Positions 4,968 through 14,928 of a DNA stretch of 45,187 nucleotides are shown piece by piece; position 1 is the first letter of the stretch, and each line of letters begins with the position of its first letter. Below the pieces are notes generated by a model. That model made no database searches, had not been told where the DNA came from, and was given only the letters and a program-made list of their open reading frames with translations. Origin of the DNA: Blastocatellia bacterium. Lineage in GTDB: Bacteria > Acidobacteriota > Blastocatellia > HR10. The stretch covers positions 1 through 45,187 of the forward strand of contig DATLZR010000168.1 of NCBI GenBank assembly GCA_035573895.1. The letters run 5' to 3'. The translations under genes and the position numbers were made by a program.

Positions 4968-5159
4968 TGGCGCGGGTTGCTCTTCAATATCTACATATTC
5001 GCTGGTCGTGGGCTGACAAGGAGAAAGACCTTCCTTCCCCGTACCTTTCAGATGTGATTCGATAGCCCTGCGGATCAACTCAGGGCCTCCCTTTTGTTCT
5101 CGGCGGGAGTCGGGGGCAGAGGCGCCAATAATTTTTTTCGCAACTGCGATGTATCGCAC
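4962..5159 (-). pseudogene. HicB-type antitoxin remnant, copy 1
   Basis: A 65-codon reading frame starting MRYIAVAKK, like the usual HicB N-terminus (MKY-hydrophobic-E/K). It ends IRRAIESHLKGTGKEGLS then PTTSEYVDIEE. The central segment of a HicB fold (Y-x-A-x-x-P-x-L-P-G-C) is missing, replaced by SAPDSRREQKG, so the gene has an internal deletion. Its tail matches that of copy 2 at 11337-11569, showing common ancestry. The stop codon sits in the attC core. Family assignment rests on tail similarity and on the HicA-like remnant directly upstream. Confidence 0.65.
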
Positions 5160-5164
5160 TCCTC

Positions 5165-5290
5165 TTTTTGTCTGAGTCCAGCTCGTTTCAAAATACTCTT
5201 GAGTGTGGCCGGTGATAGGCTCAGTCCCGGCTTACCGGCCCAGCGACAGTTCCCGGCTTAATCGGCCGTCTGAAATTGGCGGTGGCGGGC
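5165..5290 (-). pseudogene. HicA-type toxin remnant, copy 1
   Basis: HicA is a small double-stranded-RNA-binding-fold mRNA interferase. Two frames together recall it: NFRRPIKPGTV in one frame and LSLSPATLKSILKRAGL in another. These match the ends of typical HicA proteins (H/R-P-x-K-P-G-x-V then L-x-x-G-T-L-x-S-I-L-x-Q-A-G-L). A single-base loss near GTCGCTGGGCC, relative to copy 2, breaks the frame. The N-terminal half, including the catalytic His region, cannot be recognised. It lies just upstream of the HicB remnant, the normal hicA-hicB order. Confidence 0.6.
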
Positions 5291-5391: not shown

Positions 5392-5463
5392 CCCTAACGG
5401 CTACTTTGACCGGCCGCGGCAAGCGATTGCGAGCCAGCGGTCCGGTCCAATGTGATGTTAGAC
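5392..5463 (-). other. attC-like site
   Basis: On the minus strand GTCTAAC (R'') and GTTAGGG (R') bracket 72 bases. The arms TTGGACCGG and CCGGTCAAAG pair with one interruption. The site separates the HicAB remnant cassette from the phosphatase-like cassette and supplies the stop codon of the latter. Confidence 0.8.
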
Positions 5464-5975
5464 ATCGGGCCACCGACGAACCACGTCGCCCTGCCACGGG
5501 GATTCAGGCCATCCCTCCCTGCCGCGTGCCACATGAACTTCGTTCAGATACGCGATAACGACTCCCCCCTCATAGCCGAGTTCACGTAGAACGCAGCCGA
5601 GGACGGTACCGGTGCAACCCCGGCCACCATAGCAGGGGACGACAACGCCCCGGCCAGATCGGAGAGATTGGATTGTGGTACGTACCGCCCCACGGAGATA
5701 AGACCAACCTTACGCTGTGGATTGCGAGGCGGCCCGCCGCCTACTAGGTCTTCAAGATGTTCCGCAAAGATCGTTGCCAGCGGTGATGGGTTCTGGCTGC
5801 AGGGATGTAGAGAAACAAGACAGGAGAAACCGCTCTCGTAAATAGCTGCCCATGGCCAATTCGGACGGGGAAGTCTCATTCCCGCAAGAGGAGCCGGTGC
5901 CTTCAGGACCCAATAGAGATCGCCTGGAACGTGAAGACCGACGACTTGTGGTCCTTGGTTAGCTGGAATCAGCAT
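5458..5975 (-). pseudogene. Dual-specificity phosphatase-like protein, frameshifted
   Basis: The N-terminal frame begins MLIPANQGPQVVGLHVPGDL with an ATG at 5973-5975. It carries a plausible alpha/beta segment (WPWAAIYESGFSCLVSLHP). Near 5690-5705, close to a run of C/G, the recognisable sequence moves to another frame: TTIQSLRSGRGVVVPCYGG, then RGCTGTVLGCVLRELGYEGG. VPCYGGRGCTGT recalls the C-x5-R-T/S-G phosphate loop of cysteine phosphatases, although the expected R-T-G reads R-G-C-T-G. The second frame ends at TAA inside the attC core at 5458-5460. The gene is either a decaying cassette or has one base wrong in the assembly. Function is tentative. Confidence 0.55.
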
Positions 5976-5990
5976 ACCATAGCTCCCGAT

Positions 5991-6056
5991 GTTTACCCCC
6001 TGAGTTAAGCCGACTTGCGTGGCGGAGCAGATTCGGCTTGAACGAATTGGTTAGGC
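5991..6056 (-). other. attC-like site, close to the class 1 integron consensus
   Basis: The minus strand reads GCCTAAC (R''), then TTCGTTCAAGCCGA, a variable loop, and TCGGCTTAACTCA. This is very similar to aadA-type attC arms. The R' core is degraded to GGTAAAC. The stop codon of the Kelch-repeat gene lies directly before R''. Confidence 0.85.
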
Positions 6057-6057
6057 A

Positions 6058-7206
6058 TCAGTTCCGACTGCCAGTATTTATGCGACGGACCAGCCACGCC
6101 TGTGCGGTCGGCCGGATGTCGTTGTCATAGCCGCCACTAACAAGCACTGTCGAGTTTGGCAGGAGAACAGCCGAACTGAAGGCGAGGCGACTGCCAATAC
6201 GTCCACTTGCCCTGGTAAATGTTGACATGCCGGGTGTCCACACCTCGACATCGTTAGCGTCTCCCGCAACAACTACCTCCCCCGACGGCAGGACGGTCGC
6301 CGCATCAACTATCTTGTACCGCGGTGTCAACAGCGCGGGTCCTGATGAAAATTGTCCCGTTCGGGGATCAAAGATCTCTGTTTGTGCGATACGAGACCGC
6401 TCATCACAATCATTTGATCCGCCGATCACCATTACCCGCCCATCCTTGAGTAGTACAGCGCCATGCTTGCATCTAGCCTGCCGCATTGACCCTGTCACCG
6501 TAAATGTCCTTGTGCCCGGGTCGAAAATCTCGGCGGAACTGGTCGCTTGGTTGCGCCCACGTTGCCCGCCAACAACCAGTACACGCCCGTCGTTCAAGCG
6601 AACTGCGGCATGGTGGGCTCTGGCCTCATGCATGAGGCCTGCCGGTATGAACTGGCCCTTCTCTTGATCAAAAACCTCTGCTTGGCGGACGGGGTGATTG
6701 GTGGCCGTCGCTCCGCCAACGATCAGTACTGACCCATCCGGCAGAGATGTTGCCGTTGCATCCATTCGCGGTGTCGCCATCGGCTTCGTAGGCAGGAACG
6801 AGCGAGTTGGCGGGTCAAAGATCTCGGCGGAAGAGGTCGTAGCATCTCCAGTCCATCCTCCGGCGACCAAGACTCTACCGTCCTTCAATAGCGCCGCAAC
6901 GTGAGACACCCGCGGGACATGCATGGGTTGTGTTACTACCGAAGTCGCCTTGTTGAGGTAGAGCAGCTCAGCAGACCGCTCAACCGGACTGCACCCGACA
7001 CCACTGCATCCGCCGGTCACCAGAACAGAATTTGAACTAATGACCGTAACCTTATGGGCCGCGCGAGGTCTCGAAAGACCGGCAGTCGGTTGAACGGTCC
7101 ATCCGCCTGTCGGCGTTACAGCGTGATCAAAGGGCACCATAAACAAAATTACACAGCCTGGGATGGCGAAAATAAGCAAGCTAGTTTTCATGAGTGTTTT
7201 CATGAT
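6058..7206 (-). CDS. Exported Kelch-repeat beta-propeller protein (cassette gene)
   Basis: A 382-residue protein from the ATG at 7204-7206, which has a strong AAGGAGAGAA ribosome-binding site. A start at 7272 is possible but lacks one. The N-terminus MKTLMKTSLLIFAIPGCVIL is a signal peptide or anchor. At least six Kelch-type blades follow, each with a hydrophobic strand before a diglycine (RVLVAGG, SVLIVGG, RVLVVGG, RVMVIGG, EVVVAGD, TVLVSGG) and a trailing A-E-I-F-D-P-x-T strand. These resemble galactose-oxidase/Kelch propellers. No catalytic residues can be assigned, so it is probably a binding or scaffold protein outside the membrane. It is unusually large for a single cassette. Confidence 0.8.
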   Translation of the reverse strand: MMKTLMKTSLLIFAIPGCVILFMVPFDHAVTPTGGWTVQPTAGLSRPRAAHKVTVISSNSVLVTGGCSGVGCSPVERSAELLYLNKATSVVTQPMHVPRVSHVAALLKDGRVLVAGGWTGDATTSSAEIFDPPTRSFLPTKPMATPRMDATATSLPDGSVLIVGGATATNHPVRQAEVFDQEKGQFIPAGLMHEARAHHAAVRLNDGRVLVVGGQRGRNQATSSAEIFDPGTRTFTVTGSMRQARCKHGAVLLKDGRVMVIGGSNDCDERSRIAQTEIFDPRTGQFSSGPALLTPRYKIVDAATVLPSGEVVVAGDANDVEVWTPGMSTFTRASGRIGSRLAFSSAVLLPNSTVLVSGGYDNDIRPTAQAWLVRRINTGSRN

Positions 7207-7259
7207 TCTCTCCTTTTGCGTTTTGCCGAAAATAAGCAAGCTGGCTTTCATGAGCGTGC
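7159..7259 (-). repeat. Tandem duplication at the 5' end of the Kelch gene
   Basis: A segment containing ATAAGCAAGCT and TTTCATGAG (plus strand) occurs twice, about 60 bases apart (near 7170-7200 and 7228-7258). As a result MKTSLLIF of the signal peptide is preceded by a near copy, MKASLLIF. The duplication creates the extended upstream reading frame. Confidence 0.7.
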
Positions 7260-7276
7260 GAGTCATGCGCATTGCT

Positions 7277-7342
7277 GCCTAACGATGTGCCGATAACCTG
7301 CGGGCGCCGCAGGCGACCATCAGGCTCATCGGTTTGTTAGGC
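7277..7342 (-). other. attC-like site
   Basis: Minus strand GCCTAAC (7336-7342) and GTTAGGC (7277-7283) are perfect reverse complements bracketing 66 bases. The arms AACCGAT and ATCGG pair near the ends, with CGCCTGCGG/CCGCAGG closing the loop. The stop of the membrane-protein cassette lies within R''. Confidence 0.85.
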
Positions 7343-8059
7343 GACCGCACCGAGCCTCTGACCTGCCCATTGCAAGCTGCGCCACGCTTGGATCACTACT
7401 GCCAAGCACCAGACTCCAACAAACGGACCGACATCGAGGTAACCGGCCCCGGCGGGCAGTACTGGGAATGGAATAAGGTTCAACACAATGACCAGTGCCC
7501 CAAGGACGAAGCCAGAAGCAGCGAACGGCCAACGGAACCGCGGATGTCTCGTCACAGCATAGGCAAAGAAGAGCGTTCCCAGTCCATTATAAATGTCCCA
7601 CGCCACATCGAGCCCGAGCCAAATGCTGACAGGTTTTCGCATGGATTCAGGCGCATATTGCTTTGCAGCGCGTTGGACCAGGGCCATCGCAGAGAAGAGG
7701 CATCCTGGCAAGACATTGTGGATCGAACCTAGGACAGCAGCTACAGAGCGCCCATTCAAGTGGAGGAGAAAGTGCAGACCGATGCTACTGATACAGATCG
7801 CTGGACCCAGGAACGCAGCAACAGCCGCCTTCGCTCGGGGAGGCGATGGTGCAAATGTGCGAGTTAGATAGAGAATACATGCACAGAGCCCTGCCACAAT
7901 TGCTGTCTTTATCCAGTGGCGTTCATAGGCACTTCCCTTGAAGATACCCTGGGAGCGCCCGCCTCCGGCGTGCTCGTTAAGCTGGCTCCATACGGGCGCT
8001 CCCCGATTTTCCTCGCACATGACCAACGTCCAGTTCACGAGTGATTCCTGCGAACTCAT
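7337..8059 (-). CDS. Multi-pass membrane protein of unknown function (cassette gene)
   Basis: A 240-residue protein with about five to six hydrophobic segments: WIKTAIVAGLCACILYLT, the AAVAAFLGPAICISSIGLHF region, a VLPGCLFSAMALVQ region, LGTLFFAYAV, FVLGALVIVLNLIPFPVL and FVGVWCLAVVIQAW. The first ~45 residues are polar. I recognise no family. It is bounded on both sides by attC-like sites and its TAA stop is part of the downstream R'' core, so it is a complete cassette gene. GGAAAG before the ATG is a weak ribosome-binding site. Confidence 0.7.
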   Translation of the reverse strand: MSSQESLVNWTLVMCEENRGAPVWSQLNEHAGGGRSQGIFKGSAYERHWIKTAIVAGLCACILYLTRTFAPSPPRAKAAVAAFLGPAICISSIGLHFLLHLNGRSVAAVLGSIHNVLPGCLFSAMALVQRAAKQYAPESMRKPVSIWLGLDVAWDIYNGLGTLFFAYAVTRHPRFRWPFAASGFVLGALVIVLNLIPFPVLPAGAGYLDVGPFVGVWCLAVVIQAWRSLQWAGQRLGAVA

Positions 8060-8104
8060 TTATCTTTCCAGACTGATTACGACTCCTCGACTGTGGAAGT
8101 TGAT

Positions 8105-8182
8105 GGCTAACGCTCGCGCTTCAGCCGCAAGCAGCCCAAGCGCAGCGACGGAAAGCCTGTCGGGTGCATGCGCTGGTTAGCC
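8105..8182 (-). other. attC-like site
   Basis: Minus strand GGCTAAC (R'', 8176-8182) and GTTAGCC (R', 8105-8111) are reverse complements enclosing 78 bases. The inner GCGGCTGAAGCGCGAGC is shared with the attC-like site at 11797-11855, which suggests related cassette ends. Confidence 0.8.
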
Positions 8183-8205
8183 ACTGCTCCATTTCACCAA
8201 CACAA

Positions 8206-8586
8206 TCACCAAACCACCCGAACAGCATACTTGGCAATACTTGGATCCCTGCTTACCAGCATATCTTCTTCAACCTAGCTTGTCCAACTAGCAAACGGTC
8301 GAAAGGGTCTTTGTGATAGGCAGGCAAGTTCTCCTGTACCAGCGCAGGCACTAATCAACAGGCAATATCTGGATGCTGTTGGTTTGTCGTTGAGTTTCGA
8401 CAACCTCTTTCAAGGGCAAGGCTAGCCTGAGTTTTAGTAGGTGAAGTTTGATTTGAACTTCCCAAATGCTGACTCGGCTTAGCAACAAAACATTCTTCTT
8501 GACAGAGTGCCATGGCCTGCAGCGAGAGTTTGGCCGGTTCACTATCCCACCAGATAAATGTGCGCGTATGCAGCAACAGTTTCATG
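8206..8586 (-). pseudogene. VapC-like PIN-domain toxin, decayed
   Basis: VapC proteins are Mg2+-dependent PIN-domain ribonucleases. The frame starts MKLLLHTRTFIWWDSEPAKL, where the family has the catalytic Asp in MKLLLDTHTF; here it is His6. After ALCQ the similarity moves to a second frame, LLLSRVSIWEVQIKLHLLKL to QTNSIQILPVD. It moves again to ENLPAYHKDPFDRLLV and finally EDMLVSRDPSIAKYAVRVVW before the TGA at 8206-8208. At least two or three indels plus loss of the first metal-binding Asp make it non-functional. It lies directly downstream of the antitoxin remnant. Confidence 0.75.
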
Positions 8587-8596
8587 CGTTGCCCGT

Positions 8597-8806
8597 CAGA
8601 ATTCATCGGGTAATCTTTCGTCAAACTCCGGCCTGGTCCAGACTCGCCCCCGCGCGCAAACCTGCTACACGACCCGAGACAGGCACCAGACGAGCGACAG
8701 GCGTCGTGCCATCGGTGAGAATCCACTCGACCCCTGAAGCAATCTGGGAGAGCAATTCTTGTAAGCGTGCTTGAGCTTCCTTCACGTCAATTTCTTTGGG
8801 ACCCAT
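8597..8806 (-). pseudogene. Phd/YefM-type antitoxin, frameshifted at the C-terminus
   Basis: The first ~50 residues are intact and typical of Phd/YefM antitoxins: MGPKEIDVKEAQARLQELL, then a GVEWILTDGTTPVARLVPV strand-turn-strand. A good AAGGAGAAAG site precedes the ATG at 8804-8806. Near a GGGGG run at about 8650 the expected C-terminal neutralising peptide moves to another frame (RVWTRPEFDERLPDEF, then TGA at 8597-8599). In the original frame translation stops after 61 codons. The pair is a Phd-VapC type II module carried as a cassette. Confidence 0.7.
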
Positions 8807-8847
8807 AGAACTTTCTCCTTATGAACCGATTCGCGTCATGTTTGGCT

Positions 8848-8915
8848 GGCTAACAACACAGCGGATAAGCTGTCCGGGCGTTAAGCACCGGGACAGCTCC
8901 ATCCGCGGGTTAGGG
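8848..8915 (-). other. attC-like site, near-ideal palindrome
   Basis: Minus strand CCCTAAC (R'') and GTTAGCC (R') enclose 68 bases. The arms GCGGATGGAGCTGTCC and GGACAGCTTATCCGC pair completely apart from the extra G of GGA against A. That is the extrahelical-base pattern integrases use to choose the recombined strand. Confidence 0.9.
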
Positions 8916-8919
8916 GGCA

Positions 8920-9291
8920 TTATGTTGCTTTCTGAGTTATGGCTTTACGCTGAGCCATCCACTGCAAGACTACATCCACAACCCTAGCCTTAGATACCTT
9001 CGTTATGTCCACAGGCAAGTTGTTGGCTCTGCAAAAAGCCTTTAGATAGGTTTTGCTTTTACTTTGGATGAACCTTTCCACAACCCCCGAATTCGAGGAA
9101 ATGAAATCTTGATACAGTCTATCATACTCTGACCGAAGTTCTGCGTCAGGCGGCAAGGCTTCTTTTGATTGCCGTAATTTTGTCTGTCTCGGCTTATTCT
9201 CTTTGCTCAGGGCTTCCAACTCGCCTTTTATCTCGGTAAGAAGTTCTTCTACTTGTTCTATTTTCTTTTTGATGGTTTCAAGTCTATTCAT
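8920..9291 (-). CDS. Small coiled-coil protein, predicted partner of the cassette ParA-like ATPase
   Basis: A 123-residue protein overlapping the ATPase stop by ATGA, so translation is coupled. Residues about 1-45 are a heptad-rich, charged coiled coil (IKKKIEQVEELLTEIKGELE). The C-terminal half (FIQSKSKTYLKAFCRANNLP then VVDVVLQWMAQRKAI) resembles a small helical SAP- or Rho-N-like module, but I cannot assign a family. By analogy with ParA-ParB, ParA-ParC and MinD-MinE pairs it may regulate or be positioned by the ATPase; this is inference. Its composition is richer in A/T than the flanking cassettes. Confidence 0.75.
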   Translation of the reverse strand: MNRLETIKKKIEQVEELLTEIKGELEALSKENKPRQTKLRQSKEALPPDAELRSEYDRLYQDFISSNSGVVERFIQSKSKTYLKAFCRANNLPVDITKVSKARVVDVVLQWMAQRKAITQKAT

Positions 9292-10151
9292 TGATTCAAA
9301 ACCCTTTCAACGTTTCGCCATAAATCTGCAAAGTGCTCTTCAAAATCACGGGGGAAGGCCCGTCCCGGTATCGCGCGCTTGATATCAACCCTTTCGGGAA
9401 TGAACGAGTCCCAAGTCTCTATATACACCCCATCTCTACGCTTATCATCACAAACCACTTTTGATTCCCTCCAGTATCCTTCCGTTTCTCGTGTAAGCCT
9501 TCCTCCGTACAACTTGGCCTTATTCATAAAAACAGCAATTTTGGGATCGGGCCATGGCTGTATTCGGTAGCGAAGACCATCTATCATCAAACCAATGCCA
9601 CGTGAGGCAAAAACATCGGGATTGACAGGGATAAGAATAAGGCTTGAACAACTCAGCACTGAATAAGAAAGGGCGGTAAAGTTTGGAGGGCAATCGAAGA
9701 AGACATAGTCGTAATCAAATTTCTTCGAATGTTCAATCTTTCCAAGCAAAGCCCTGATAAAGTGTTTGACTTTCTCTCTGTCAAAAACCTCAAGTTCGAG
9801 CCAATATAGATCAACCACCGACGGTACAAAATGAAGGTTGGGGCTCATTGGGTAGATGAAGGACGCATCAATCGGAAAATCGAAATACCCACCTTCCATC
9901 TTGTCATACTTCTCAAGGGCATCCAGGATGGTTTTTTTCTTCTTTCTATGCTTGTTTTCATACCAGCTTTCGAACTCCCCGTACATAGCACCGCTCTCTT
10001 GCAGTTGTACGGCGAGCGTGAGGCTCATCTGAGCATCTGTGTCTACAACCAAGACCTTCCTGCCTTTTTCTGCTGCATATTTAGCAAGAAGCCAAGTTAC
10101 CGTTGTTTTGCCAACACCACCTTTGAAGTTGATAGTTGCGATCCCCTTCAT
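9288..10151 (-). CDS. ParA/MinD-like P-loop ATPase (cassette gene)
   Basis: A 287-residue protein from the ATG at 10149-10151, preceded by a GGGAGG site. It has the deviant Walker A of the ParA family (NFKGGVGKTT, residues 8-17), the A' region VVDTDAQMSLTL, and Walker B YDYVFFDCPPNFTALS. These ATPases dimerise on ATP and position DNA or protein cargo on the nucleoid or membrane. It differs from the housekeeping parA at 33596: there is no parS or ParB next to it, and a coiled-coil protein is encoded directly downstream. It lies between two attC-like sites, so the two genes form one large cassette (about 1.3 kb). The A/T-rich codon use suggests a different donor. Confidence 0.88.
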   Translation of the reverse strand: MKGIATINFKGGVGKTTVTWLLAKYAAEKGRKVLVVDTDAQMSLTLAVQLQESGAMYGEFESWYENKHRKKKKTILDALEKYDKMEGGYFDFPIDASFIYPMSPNLHFVPSVVDLYWLELEVFDREKVKHFIRALLGKIEHSKKFDYDYVFFDCPPNFTALSYSVLSCSSLILIPVNPDVFASRGIGLMIDGLRYRIQPWPDPKIAVFMNKAKLYGGRLTRETEGYWRESKVVCDDKRRDGVYIETWDSFIPERVDIKRAIPGRAFPRDFEEHFADLWRNVERVLNQ

Positions 10152-10192
10152 TCGTTGCCTCCCGTGACCGTTGGAGACGATGTAGCACTGCT

Positions 10193-10253
10193 GCCTAACG
10201 CTCGGTATCAGCCGCGCCGCCACCAGGTGTCAGCCTGCATACCGTTGTTAACG
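10193..10253 (-). other. attC-like site
   Basis: Minus strand CGTTAAC (slightly degenerate R'') and GTTAGGC (R', 10193-10199) enclose 61 bases. The arms CGGTATGCAGGCTG and CGGCTGATACCG pair with one extrahelical base. The site separates the nuclease gene (stop at 10275) from the ParA-like cassette. Confidence 0.85.
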
Positions 10254-10274
10254 GTCTCGTTCAATCCCCCCTCC

Positions 10275-11306
10275 TCATTGGACTTCAAGTAGGGTGCCGC
10301 TCAGACCGCAATACTCCAAGAGCTTCCTTGCGTTGGCGATACAACCAGGAGTACTGTAGTGGGTCTCAATGAACAATCCGTTACTGAGCTTCTTGGGTGC
10401 ACGAAAGTCATCACCGTAACGGTGCTTTGGTTCGATATTCACGAGGTAGCGTTTGCGGCCTGAAATCATGGGACAGTTTTCCCTGCGCAATTTGCCTTTC
10501 TTGATCAACCACTCTGCTGTGTTCACCAAGATGTCGTAAGAATTCCTCACAGTAAAAGTGTCACGCTCGATCCTCATCGTCCTTGGGCACTGGCTGGGTG
10601 GAATTTCTATAGGGGCGAGTGGATGCTCTGGCTGAGGCGAGATGACCTCGTTCAGCCTTTCCAGAATGAAGTCCTCAGCTTCTTCAGGTGTAATATCGCA
10701 GTCCGGATGGGCCTCTTTGGCGATGGTCAGAAACACAGGAACTATGCCCTTCGTCAAACTCAGGGGATCTTCTAGTAACGACTCCCACACCTCGTCGAGC
10801 ATTCCGAGTTTCGTTAGCAGCCTATCAATGCTATTGATGTTCGTGATTGACACAGTGTTCAGTTTTCTGACAATAGCGTTCATGTCGTCGTGTTCAATAT
10901 CTATTTTCCAAACGATTCGTTCGGCCATCGGCGTTCCTTCCTGGAATGCACGGAAAAGGATCCAAACTGCACCGTTCGTGAGAATCCCATATGACACCCC
11001 CTGATTGAAGCAGTACTTCGCTAACTGGCCGAGTACTTGTCTTTCCTCAACATCAATAGACATCTTCTTCGCCTCGACGAACAGAACCTTCTTACCGTCC
11101 AACAACAAGCTGTAGTCGGGTACTCCCTCCTCCGCAGAGACGTTTGGTCGCACTTTGTCTGGGTCTTCCGTATCCCATCCGAGGCCTCTCAGAATCGGGT
11201 CAATGACTTGATTCCTCGTGGCCGTCTCGTTTTGCTCGTAGAACGACCGGTGTGCTCGAATTCGTGTGGTTACTCGCTGGATCAATTCTGAGAGTTCAAG
11301 CATCAT
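10275..11306 (-). CDS. Solitary HsdR_N-type PD-(D/E)xK nuclease
   Basis: A 343-residue protein. Residues about 5-150 form the N-terminal nuclease domain of type I restriction HsdR subunits: Glu27 (NETATRNQVI), Asp64 (GVPDYSLL), Glu78-x-Lys80 (LFVEAKK), then GQLAKYCFNQGVSYGILTNG. There is no helicase motor, so this is one of the stand-alone HsdR_N proteins; some are linked to phage defence, others are uncharacterised. The C-terminal ~150 residues (TFTVRNSYDILVNTAEWLIK to HYSTPGCIANARKLLEYCGL) may recognise a target. A GGAGG site precedes ATGATG. Only 30 bases separate it from the HicB remnant and no full attC lies between, so the two cassettes appear fused. Confidence 0.85.
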   Translation of the reverse strand: MMLELSELIQRVTTRIRAHRSFYEQNETATRNQVIDPILRGLGWDTEDPDKVRPNVSAEEGVPDYSLLLDGKKVLFVEAKKMSIDVEERQVLGQLAKYCFNQGVSYGILTNGAVWILFRAFQEGTPMAERIVWKIDIEHDDMNAIVRKLNTVSITNINSIDRLLTKLGMLDEVWESLLEDPLSLTKGIVPVFLTIAKEAHPDCDITPEEAEDFILERLNEVISPQPEHPLAPIEIPPSQCPRTMRIERDTFTVRNSYDILVNTAEWLIKKGKLRRENCPMISGRKRYLVNIEPKHRYGDDFRAPKKLSNGLFIETHYSTPGCIANARKLLEYCGLSGTLLEVQ

Positions 11307-11335
11307 CGCCTCCAGAGTCTATCCCGATGACCTGT

Positions 11336-11342
11336 GTTAGGC
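11336..11342 (-). other. Isolated R''-type attC half-site
   Basis: Minus strand GCCTAAC closes the HicB remnant (it contains its TAA), but no palindromic arms or R' core follow before the nuclease gene begins at 11306. I read it as an attC that lost its R' half by deletion. Confidence 0.55.
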
Positions 11343-11569
11343 AGTTGGCGTGGATTGTTCTTCGGTATCGAAATATTCACTGGTCGTCGGCTGACGAAGG
11401 GGAAGATCTTCTTCCCTCGTATCTTCATCTTCCCGATGTAATTCGATAGCTTCACGAATCAACCTCAGGACCTCTCTTTTGACCTCGGCGACCGCGACAC
11501 AACCCGAAGTCTGGGACACGGGGGCCAATAAATTTTTTCTCCCTCCTCCACAACCGCGACGCATTGCAT
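11337..11569 (-). pseudogene. HicB-type antitoxin remnant, copy 2
   Basis: HicB antitoxins neutralise HicA and usually autoregulate. The frame starting at 11567-11569 reads MQCVAVVEEGEKIYWPPCP, a clear HicB start. After a frameshift the second frame gives SGCVAVAEVKREVLRLIREA, then IELHREDEDTREEDLP and PTTSEYFDTEE, matching the P-G-C-x-x-x-x-T-x-E-E-x-x-x-x-I-R-E-A-I-E-L-x core. It is much better preserved than copy 1, from which it differs in the position of its indels. The stop lies inside GCCTAAC. Confidence 0.75.
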
Positions 11570-11578
11570 CTTACACCC

Positions 11579-11746
11579 CTATTTCTGTCCGAGTCCAGCT
11601 TGTCTCAAAAAATGCTCTTGAGTGTTTGCCCGGTGGTAGGTTCAGTCTCAGCTTACCCTCCACAGTAACAGTTCCGGGCTTAATCGGCTGTCTGAAATTG
11701 GCGGGGCTGCCTTTCCAAGCATCTTGATGACAGCCCCTACCTTTAC
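11579..11746 (-). pseudogene. HicA-type toxin remnant, copy 2
   Basis: The pieces in order are VKVGAVIKMLGK (HicA N-terminal helix), ANFRQPIKPGTVTVEGKLRL, then in another frame TLKSI and, after a run of T, RQAGLGQK and TAG. The catalytic His region between the first two pieces has been deleted, and indels at GGGCAAAC and TTTTTT break the rest. Copy 1 carries different indels, so the two decayed independently. Confidence 0.7.
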
Positions 11747-11796
11747 TCCGAACGAAGAATAGCTCCTTTTTTTTACCTCCGCAAGTGAACCAACCC

Positions 11797-11855
11797 GCTT
11801 AACGCTCGCGCTTCAGCCGCAAGCGGAGCATGTCGGATGGAAGCGCTTGTTGGGC
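11797..11855 (-). other. attC-like site
   Basis: Minus strand GCCCAAC (R'') and GTTAAGC (R') bracket 59 bases. AAGCGCTTC and GAAGCGC pair near the ends. The loop-side sequence CTTGCGGCTGAAGCGCGAGC is shared with the site at 8105-8182. Confidence 0.8.
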
Positions 11856-11862
11856 GCCAGCG

Positions 11863-12090
11863 TCACCCTGGGGATGTTGCCGAACGCCCGCCTTTTCGAG
11901 GAATAGTAACAACTCTTCCACAAGCCTGTCTGCTCTTCTCTCCGGCTTCACCACGAGTTGCATCTGTGCTCATCGCCGCGTACTTGATCCAAAGGCGCGA
12001 GTTTCGGTAATCGGTAACTACCTGCCAAGCCTCAAAGTCTCGGTAGACACAGTTCGCCAATCCGGGACCGATACACACTTCGAGGAGCAT
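11863..12090 (-). CDS. Small hypothetical cassette protein, possibly frameshifted
   Basis: A 75-residue frame starting MLLEVCIGPGLANCVYRDFE and continuing WQVVTDYRNSRLWIKYAAMS. I recognise no family. The last 30 residues look less protein-like than the overlapping frame (LVVKPERRADRLVEELLLFL), which would fit an amphipathic C-terminal helix, so a frameshift near 11960 is possible. The gene is the only candidate in this cassette, which lies between the attC-like sites at 11797 and 12173. Confidence 0.35.
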   Translation of the reverse strand: MLLEVCIGPGLANCVYRDFEAWQVVTDYRNSRLWIKYAAMSTDATRGEAGEKSRQACGRVVTIPRKGGRSATSPG

Positions 12091-12172
12091 CTTTGCGAAA
12101 ACGTCTCAAGCTCTCCGAGTTCATCTTTCATCGGTTTGCATCTACCCGACATCTATGCACTGACACATGGCT

Positions 12173-12244
12173 TCCTAACGGCCTGCGCTTCATCTGCGCC
12201 GCCGGAGCGCAGCGGCCGGCGTCAGATGCAAGCCCGTGTTAGCT
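12173..12244 (-). other. attC-like site
   Basis: Minus strand AGCTAAC (R'') and GTTAGGA (R') bracket 72 bases. GCTTGCATCTG pairs with CAGATGAAGC with an extrahelical base, and a GC-rich inner hairpin (CCGG/CCGG) closes the loop. It lies 50 bases downstream of the aldo/keto reductase stop. Confidence 0.85.
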
Positions 12245-12293
12245 CGGCTTAGAGGCGAAACCCCATACAGATAACAGGCGGGTGGCATCGCGA

Positions 12294-13238
<945 letters not shown>

Positions 13239-13250
<12 letters not shown>

Positions 13251-13720
13251 CTTGCCAACTGTGGTCGTAGCGGCTTGCAACTGCCACGACCGCCGCCAGC
13301 GAACTCCCTGCCCCTCGGTCAACAAGCTACGCTTGGTGCCCTTCTTGCCCCGATCGGTGGGATTTGACTCCGTCTCTTCCTGCTCCAAAGGAGCCTTGCT
13401 CATGGCGCCGTCCACGACTTGCCATTCCCACTCCAGGCCCACCTGCTGATCGTAGACCAAGAGCCTAGCCCGCCACAACGGCTTGAAGACCCCGGCCTGG
13501 CACCACTCTTGAAAACGGTCGTGTACCGTGCTGGTAGCTCCCAGACTGCGCGGCAGCGCTTTCCACTGACGTCCGGTGCGCAGCACATAGTAAATGGCAT
13601 CCATCGCTTGACCATCCGGCACGCATGGCCGTCCCCCTTGGGACCAGACTCCTGATGTGGCACCAGTGGCTCGATCTGGCTCCAAAGCGCGTCAGAGATG
13701 CGCCATCCACCGCAGGCTGA
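13239..13720 (-). pseudogene. IS5-family transposase fragment, frameshifted and 3'-truncated
   Basis: Recognisable segments in order: WRISDALWSQIEPLVPHQES, then a frameshift around the GGGGG of the GGRPCVPD motif, then DGQAMDAIYYVLRTGRQWKA, LGATSTVHDRFQEWCQAGVF, and VDGAMSKAPL, which holds the DxS/T-x-x-K-A-P catalytic region. Next come the GKKGTKRSLLTEGQG motif and, in another frame, LAAVVAVASRYDHSW. The remainder of the DDE domain, including the second Asp and the Glu, is absent. It cannot be active. Confidence 0.8.
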
Positions 13721-13735
13721 TCAGTATCCTGTCAT
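13239..13735 (-). mobile_element. IS5-family insertion sequence remnant
   Basis: About 0.5 kb related to IS5-family elements. It covers the N-terminal part of a transposase and stops where an attC-like arm begins, so the downstream half and that terminal repeat were lost. I could not identify the other terminal inverted repeat with certainty near 13735. It probably entered the array by insertion and then suffered a deletion that removed part of an attC. Confidence 0.75.
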
Positions 13736-13809
13736 CTCCTCCATTGCACATGCCTAGTAGAGGAATATTGTACCCGATCAGAGGTCTTCGGATAGGCTCT
13801 GAGATAAGC

Positions 13810-13937
13810 GCCCAACGGCAGGGGGATAATCCGCGCGGTCACAGCCAGGCACGCCACGTGAACCAGAACAACACAAATGACCAACTGCCGTGCGTTGACG
13901 TGCGCGCAGCGCGGTCGGCTTCATTCCCGTGTTGGGC
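13810..13937 (-). other. Long attC-like site
   Basis: Minus strand GCCCAAC (13931-13937) and GTTGGGC (13810-13816) are exact reverse complements 128 bases apart. The inner arms are less clear than at other sites, but long attC sites of this size are normal in integrons. It lies 37 bases downstream of the SnoaL-like gene. Confidence 0.6.
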
Positions 13938-13973
13938 CGCCTCTTGATCTATTTGCTGCGCTTCCGGTTACCT

Positions 13974-14375
13974 TCACGAACGAGGAATTAGCCCTAACTG
14001 TTTCGCCATCGTCGCAGAGTCATAATACAACCGTGCCCGCCGAATCACGCCCCCTTCGACATCGTAGATTGCACACATTGGGATCTCGACGCGCTTGTTT
14101 GTAGGAGGCATGCCCATCAGGGAACCTGTATTAACGCCATGGAAGGTGAACTCCAGGACGATGGACTTGTCATCTGCGACAAGATTGCGGACTTCCGCGC
14201 GGGCTTCGGAGAATGCCGTGTGGTAGAACATGTCAAGCATTGCACTGATGGCCTCGCGCCCGCGTAGAGGTTCGACCTGACTGAAATCCTGAAATGTTGC
14301 GTCCTCTGCCATGAACTTGGGATCGTGATTGGCCAAGTAGGCCTGGACTACTTTGATGTTGTCTTGTGCTGACAT
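13974..14375 (-). CDS. SnoaL-like/NTF2-fold protein (cassette gene)
   Basis: A 133-residue cone-shaped alpha+beta-barrel protein of the SnoaL-like/ester cyclase group. Typical features are the N-terminal helix (NIKVVQAYLANHDPKFMAED), ATFQDFSQVEPLRGREAI with the family's RG-x-x-x-I/V, and strands VLEFTFHGVNTGSLMGMPPT and YDVEGGVIRRARLYYDSATM. Such proteins bind or isomerise small hydrophobic molecules; the ligand is not predictable. AAGGAGAAG before the ATG is a good ribosome-binding site. It is the first intact cassette gene at the integrase end of the array. Confidence 0.85.
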   Translation of the reverse strand: MSAQDNIKVVQAYLANHDPKFMAEDATFQDFSQVEPLRGREAISAMLDMFYHTAFSEARAEVRNLVADDKSIVLEFTFHGVNTGSLMGMPPTNKRVEIPMCAIYDVEGGVIRRARLYYDSATMAKQLGLIPRS

Positions 14376-14625
14376 TTTCTTCTCCTTTCAGGGTTGAACT
14401 GTGATTGGTTTCCGCATCAATACCGAGACCGCCCTTGCACGTGTTAGTGGGGCGTTGGGTGAATCACTTTCACTTACAGCGGATGAGCGTTTACCACCTC
14501 CTTAGACGATGAGGCTCTCCAGGGTGGCCGAGTACGGTACAGGTAATCATAGTGCTCAAGGTCTATCCGGGGCTATGCTGTCAACGATATCCTACGCTGA
14601 CGCGCGCATCCATTGTGACAGAGCA

Positions 14626-14740
14626 GCCCAACGGGCGCGAGTTGAGCGGCTCCCCCGACGAGCATCGAAGCTCGTGGCTTTCGACGCGAGGAGTGGGGCG
14701 AAGCCGCGAAGCGGAGTCCGCTCCAACCGAGCGGTTGGCG
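14626..14740 (-). other. attC-like site abutting the integrase remnant
   Basis: Minus strand CGCCAAC (R'', 14734-14740) and GTTGGGC (R', 14626-14632) bracket 115 bases. GGTTGGAGCGG and CCGCTCAAC pair with an extrahelical G. The coding remnant of the integrase runs up to the R'' core. A further GTTRRRY-like motif (GTTGGGT, 14454-14460) lies downstream without partner arms. Confidence 0.55.
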
Positions 14741-14928
14741 CTTGCCGTGAAGATGAATCGTTTGATCCAGGCCACGTAAGCTTCTTTTGCTCTGAGGCTA
14801 TAAGGCCTCACCCGGATTGCCTGACGCACCTCATCCGGGAGTTTGGGCTTACGTGCGCCGGCAGATTCTGACCAAAAAAGCAGGGCTGACCGCAGGCTGC
14901 CAACCGTTCCTTGGCGATGCCGACTCAC
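14741..14928 (-). pseudogene. Integron integrase (IntI) N-terminal remnant
   Basis: About 63 codons. The segment LPDEVRQAIRVRPYSLRAKE followed by AYVAWIKRFI matches the N-terminal SAM-like DNA-binding domain of IntI tyrosine recombinases (IntI1 has R-x-R-I-R-x-x-x-Y-S-x-R-T-E-x-A-Y-V-x-W-x-x-x-F-I). After a one-base shift the sequence continues HGKRQP, matching the F-H-G-x-R-H-P that follows in the family. It then ends at an attC-like R'' core. The catalytic domain (R-H-R-Y) is absent here and elsewhere in the window. It is transcribed in the same direction as the cassettes, the less common arrangement. Confidence 0.75.

Follow-up and report, generated by a model that had tools for sequence, protein, structure and literature searches.

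A ParA-type ATPase and its coiled-coil partner form a conserved, mobile two-gene module

The ParA-type ATPase and the coiled-coil protein encoded at positions 8920–10151 of the window (the whole stretch of DNA analysed here, 45,187 nucleotides of contig DATLZR010000168.1 from a Blastocatellia bacterium) constitute a conserved, mobile two-gene ParA module that is new to the protein-family libraries compared. This conclusion rests on a constant partner, co-divergence of the two proteins, movement either in cassette form or as a lone insert, and the lack of any ParB or parS linked to the pair. The ParA ATPases described so far mostly work with ParB, MinE or cargo adaptors. The family described here moves as a 1.3–1.4-kb unit, without a cargo gene or known centromere and always with the same partner. 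Our preferred reading, with a probability of roughly 45%, is that of a self-contained mobile module in which a ParA switch and its coiled-coil partner most likely protect against foreign DNA. Among the papers searched, titles and abstracts on ParA with integron cassettes, the SAP domain or defence contain no description of the pair.

The ATPase and its partner

The ATPase (287 aa) is encoded at 9288–10151 and the partner (123 aa) at 8920–9291, both on the minus strand, with the partner ATG overlapping the ATPase TGA in an ATGA junction. These open reading frames bear out the complete ParA-like ATPase and ATGA-coupled partner that an earlier note had read from the DNA at this location. The ATPase matches Pfam AAA_31 (E = 1.8e-31) and contains a deviant Walker A motif, KGGVGKTT (residues 10–17), followed by DTDAQMSLT and a Walker B-like FFDCPP. 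It thus has the features of the ParA/MinD (deviant Walker A) superfamily, namely KGGxGKT with the signature lysine, the Walker A' and B aspartates and the ParA fold. The structure model (pTM 0.86) superposes on Soj, ParA and McdA with a TM-score of about 0.7, and the best sequence match in the PDB is Soj from H. pylori (E 2.7e-17). No specific family beyond generic ParA is found for the ATPase in NCBIfam, PADLOC or PHROG.

In the family alignment, conservation is complete or nearly complete for residues K10, K15, D37, D39 and D153 and for the DCPP motif. The same holds for R254, K258 and R259, which correspond in position to the segment IPRNVRLAEAP of the Soj-type ParA encoded elsewhere in the window and may contact DNA. 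The family ATPase has a specific insert after the DTDAQ motif that is absent from this Soj-type ParA. MinD proteins are defined by a C-terminal membrane-targeting amphipathic helix; the ATPase model ends in a predicted helix (residues 268–285).

The partner model (pLDDT 83 overall, about 90 across most of residues 50–120) contains helices at residues 3–30, 49–64, 70–77, 80–89 and 101–122. The family alignment shows the same layout, in which a variable linker joins a helix at the N-terminus to a helical C-terminal domain (residues 49–122 in the window protein), as anticipated from the sequence in the form of an N-terminal coiled coil and a small helical C-terminus. Pfam matches among the 29 partners aligned, to SAP (best E = 1.6e-5) and Rho_N (best E = 0.0077), lie mostly below the cut-off; in one partner, SAP scores 16.4 bits, short of the cut-off at 23.9. 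A fold search of the PDB with the partner model returned no relative, and we therefore call the C-terminal domain SAP-like only tentatively. No specific family is found for the partner in NCBIfam, PADLOC or PHROG, where its matches are weak and coiled-coil-like (1.7e-7 for a coiled-coil-type match in PADLOC). Nor does the partner match any ParB or ParG family in Pfam, NCBIfam, PHROGs or the PDB sequences.

Linkage, co-divergence and distribution of the pair

A scan of the genome collection identified 32 loci, 29 of which are usable family members with 39–91% identity; they come from about 15 phyla and include one archaeal sequence. Two loci that are not clear members (L045 and L046) and one cut by a contig end (L044) were set aside, and L036 and L014 are the same locus, from genome G084. 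Every one of the 30 relatives with enough contig left to tell (28 of 28 collection loci, together with L012 and L013) has the partner gene directly downstream of the ATPase gene. Partner-type frames start near the ATPase stop, with a 4-base gene overlap in 17 of the 29 aligned pairs. The linkage search proposed in the earlier note thus revealed no family ATPase without the partner, in support of a conserved two-gene system.

Profile searches of 396 Acidobacteriota genomes recover the ATPase (E ≤ 3.6e-83) and the partner (E ≤ 1.3e-33) in the same four genomes and in no others; the next matches to the partner profile are coiled-coil noise at 3e-5 and weaker. The three genomes other than that of the window encode ATPases 51–55% identical to the one studied here. 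A single-sequence search had made the partner appear unique to the window, which the profile search rules out. Pairwise distances of the ATPases and the partners are strongly correlated (Mantel r 0.754, with none of 2000 permutations as high), at a mean identity across the family of about 22% for the partner versus 54% for the ATPase. On the preferred reading, the pair is obligate and its two genes are coupled in translation.

The nearest ATPases, 91% and 89% identical, are found in an Anaerolinea bin and a Nitrospira bin, respectively. These similarities between phyla point to interphylum transfer; misbinning of a recently moved unit is less likely to account for both. The relatives are mostly metagenome bins, so single taxon assignments may be wrong.

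Carriage as a cassette and as a lone insert

The pair is located in a cassette array at 5392–14740 (minus strand), which is flanked by an ABC-permease/beta-lactamase-like region and a membrane pyrophosphatase-like gene (as judged from their open reading frames). A strict scan of the window detects six attC sites, all within 5392–12244 and starting at 5392, 7277, 8105, 8848, 11797 and 12173; 20 shuffled versions of the window give 0.35 sites on average. A relaxed scan, for which the null is 0–4 sites per window, adds weaker sites at 13810 and 14626. The genome of the window (3.9 Mb, 184 contigs) contains no integrase above the TIGR02249 cut-off, and only a Xer-type recombinase and N-terminal integrase remnants are found; the array thus represents an integrase-less attC cluster and not a complete integron. 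One remnant, of about 30 N-terminal residues, lies at the array edge (14740–14835, minus strand; TIGR02249 positions 3–34, E 4.6e-4). Its reading direction points toward the array, not outward. A second remnant is located on another contig of this genome (G000:C162:5741-5833), and both match only the N-terminal ~30 residues of the integrase.

The attC site downstream of the pair (8848–8915, minus strand) begins a few bases past the partner stop codon and folds far better than expected, with a z-score of −4.7 and none of 200 shuffles as good. The site upstream, at about 10190–10256 (minus strand), belongs to the preceding HSDR_N-like cassette and was recognised by reading the sequence. It has a good R' box (GTTAGGC) and a degenerate R'' box, and folds no better than chance (z −0.55). 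Of the two attC sites previously described as well formed, only the downstream one is so. Independent support for the cassette edges comes from locus L015, whose DNA is 83% similar to positions 8896–10162 of the window; in L015 the similarity extends from 28 bases after its upstream attC into the start of its downstream attC. The window pair is therefore bounded by attC sites, the upstream one degenerate, with homology confined between attC sites, as defines an integron cassette.

Similarity to the window cassette begins and ends at attC sites in two other genomes. At L015, L016 and L035 the pair is flanked by attC sites, and L015 and L035 also contain full-length IntI open reading frames, so that the proposed carriage as an integron cassette is seen in at least three other genomes. 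The pair resembles other cassettes, including those of integrase-less attC clusters, in being attC-bounded with a gene end that abuts attC. It differs from them in having two coupled genes per cassette and in that the same pair also occurs as a lone insert without attC.

Lone pairs without a detected attC are found among housekeeping genes, as read from the sequence: nuoD- and nuoG-like in L025, sufB- and sufC-like in L040, and nrdB- and fumarase-like in L037. Neither attC nor terminal repeats are observed for the pairs at L025:7980-9267, L040:384-1525 and L036:7925-9352. An empty site is available for L036: six congeners (L051, L052, L053, L055, L056 and L057) lack the pair between their alkP-like gene and serS. 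In the alignment of five of these with L036, the shared flanks delimit an insert of about 1.43 kb, for which no terminal repeats were found. The pair is thus horizontally mobile, either as a cassette or as a lone insert.

Other parts of the array show further features. Adjoining the pair, an orphan HSDR_N-like nuclease domain protein of 343 aa occupies its own cassette (10275–11306, minus strand). On the other side lies a decayed toxin–antitoxin cassette (8355–8806, minus strand), with a Phd/YefM-like antitoxin frame at 8621–8806 followed by an apparently frame-shifted PIN-type toxin. Segments 5045–5282 and 11429–11704, ~6.4 kb apart, are 77–90% identical in blocks and probably derive from a duplicated cassette. 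A Kelch-repeat protein is encoded at 6058–7272 (minus strand), with a tandem 34-nt repeat across its start (7164 and 7224).

Possible roles of the pair

The ATPase has the fold and motifs of the ParABS ATPases, but unlike in those systems the pair has no ParB-type partner and no parS, and it is not found on plasmids. The only parS-like site in the window (33504) lies beside the chromosomal parAB (about 33.5–35.2 kb); no such site is observed near the cassette and no ParB is linked to the pair, in keeping with the contrast to the chromosomal parABS drawn earlier. No family member occurs among 72,556 plasmids, among 50,697 phages or among the viral contigs searched. The plasmid matches L007 (a small E. 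coli plasmid ATPase) and L008–L010 were rejected as relatives, being ordinary ParAs with 27–33% identity. In view of the lack of linked ParB and parS and of members in the plasmid, phage and viral collections, we reject plasmid partition.

An ATPase that acts on DNA under regulation by the partner is likely. As a switch with the ParA fold, the ATPase would presumably form dimers upon ATP binding and attach to DNA without sequence specificity. The partner probably forms dimers as well, by way of the N-terminal coiled coil, and probably contacts or stimulates the ATPase with the same region; its small helical, perhaps SAP-like, C-terminal domain would hold the target, most simply nucleic acid. 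ATP-dependent DNA binding, stimulation of the ATPase by the partner and a role in defence are all inferred. The selected role would most likely be protection against phage or plasmid DNA and not replicon partition; defence is plausible and ranks first among the roles considered, with a probability somewhat below one half.

The linkage and co-divergence of the pair, its conserved catalytic residues, its mobility, the lack of members in plasmid, phage and viral collections and its restriction-type neighbours all count toward a protective module. Restriction or defence-type genes neighbour the pair at about ten of 31 loci, about a third as a raw count. They comprise DUF3644 and AAA_21 (L012), a NotI-like REase with methyltransferases and REase-ARP (L016), DUF3800 (L017), GmrSD_N and HEPN (L020), Mrr_cat (L023), Eco57I with SNF2/PLD (L028), an N6_N4 methyltransferase (L030), DUF4268 (L032) and, in the window itself, HSDR_N; L038 is the locus that fits a type III methyltransferase detected close to the pair. 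PADLOC models at E ≤ 1e-12 number 91 for 90 near genes versus 8 for 60 far genes, a contrast that counts redundant models and is qualitative only. Against protection, restriction or defence-type neighbours are missing at about two thirds of the loci read, the pair is not represented by any PADLOC model, and the SAP assignment is weak. Among described anti-phage systems in PADLOC, the ATPase has only partial matches, in the P-loop region; the candidate PDC-M28B resembles it there (E 1e-7), but the match spans only about 60 residues and the partner has none. It is rather unlikely that the pair represents a new defence class, one where a ParA-type ATPase works on incoming DNA together with a coiled-coil partner that binds nucleic acid, and where an integron cassette of two genes carries both from phylum to phylum.

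A different function is suggested by McdAB, which positions carboxysomes; here too, a ParA-type ATPase is combined with an adjacent small coiled-coil partner gene, whose product has no ParB or HTH match. The pair could then form a nucleoid ATPase gradient with the coiled-coil protein as an adaptor that spaces a widely present cellular cargo. The ATPase model is close to McdA, among others, and several copies lie co-directionally in operons of housekeeping genes (for example those of L025 and L040). However, the ATPase is only about 20% identical to McdA, a level it also reaches with other ParAs, and no solved structure matches the partner. Across the 32 loci, no carboxysome or microcompartment cargo genes, no recurrent neighbour and no conserved third gene are found beside the pair. 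A spread as sparse as 4 genomes in 396 and movement as a cassette are also ill suited to a core organelle function, and we consider positioning unlikely.

Maintenance of islands or cassette arrays, by addiction or segregation, would fit the presence of the pair in both. ParA homologues commonly stabilise DNA, and cassette arrays often hold stabilising toxin–antitoxin cassettes. The missing parS, ParB and plasmid members speak against such a module, as do the many chromosomal copies that stand alone with nothing there to stabilise. Because the pair often stands as a lone insert with no integron around it, array maintenance, one of the functions considered in the earlier note, is not the general role, and a maintenance module of any kind appears improbable. 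Equally small is the chance of a host regulatory pair in which the ATPase and a DNA-binding coiled coil target host DNA or host gene expression. The resemblance of some partners to SAP/Rho_N and the insertion within operons agree with this, but the patchy distribution, the interphylum transfer and the restriction-gene neighbours do not.

Action of the pair on foreign DNA, the preferred reading, would add a ParA machine to bacterial immunity; positioning of cargo would instead make it a portable positioning system.

Related nuclease-like proteins are encoded after the pair in two unrelated genomes (L016:9335-10330 and L023:9388-10296), the one in L016 being assigned to REase-ARP/PD-(D/E)XK.
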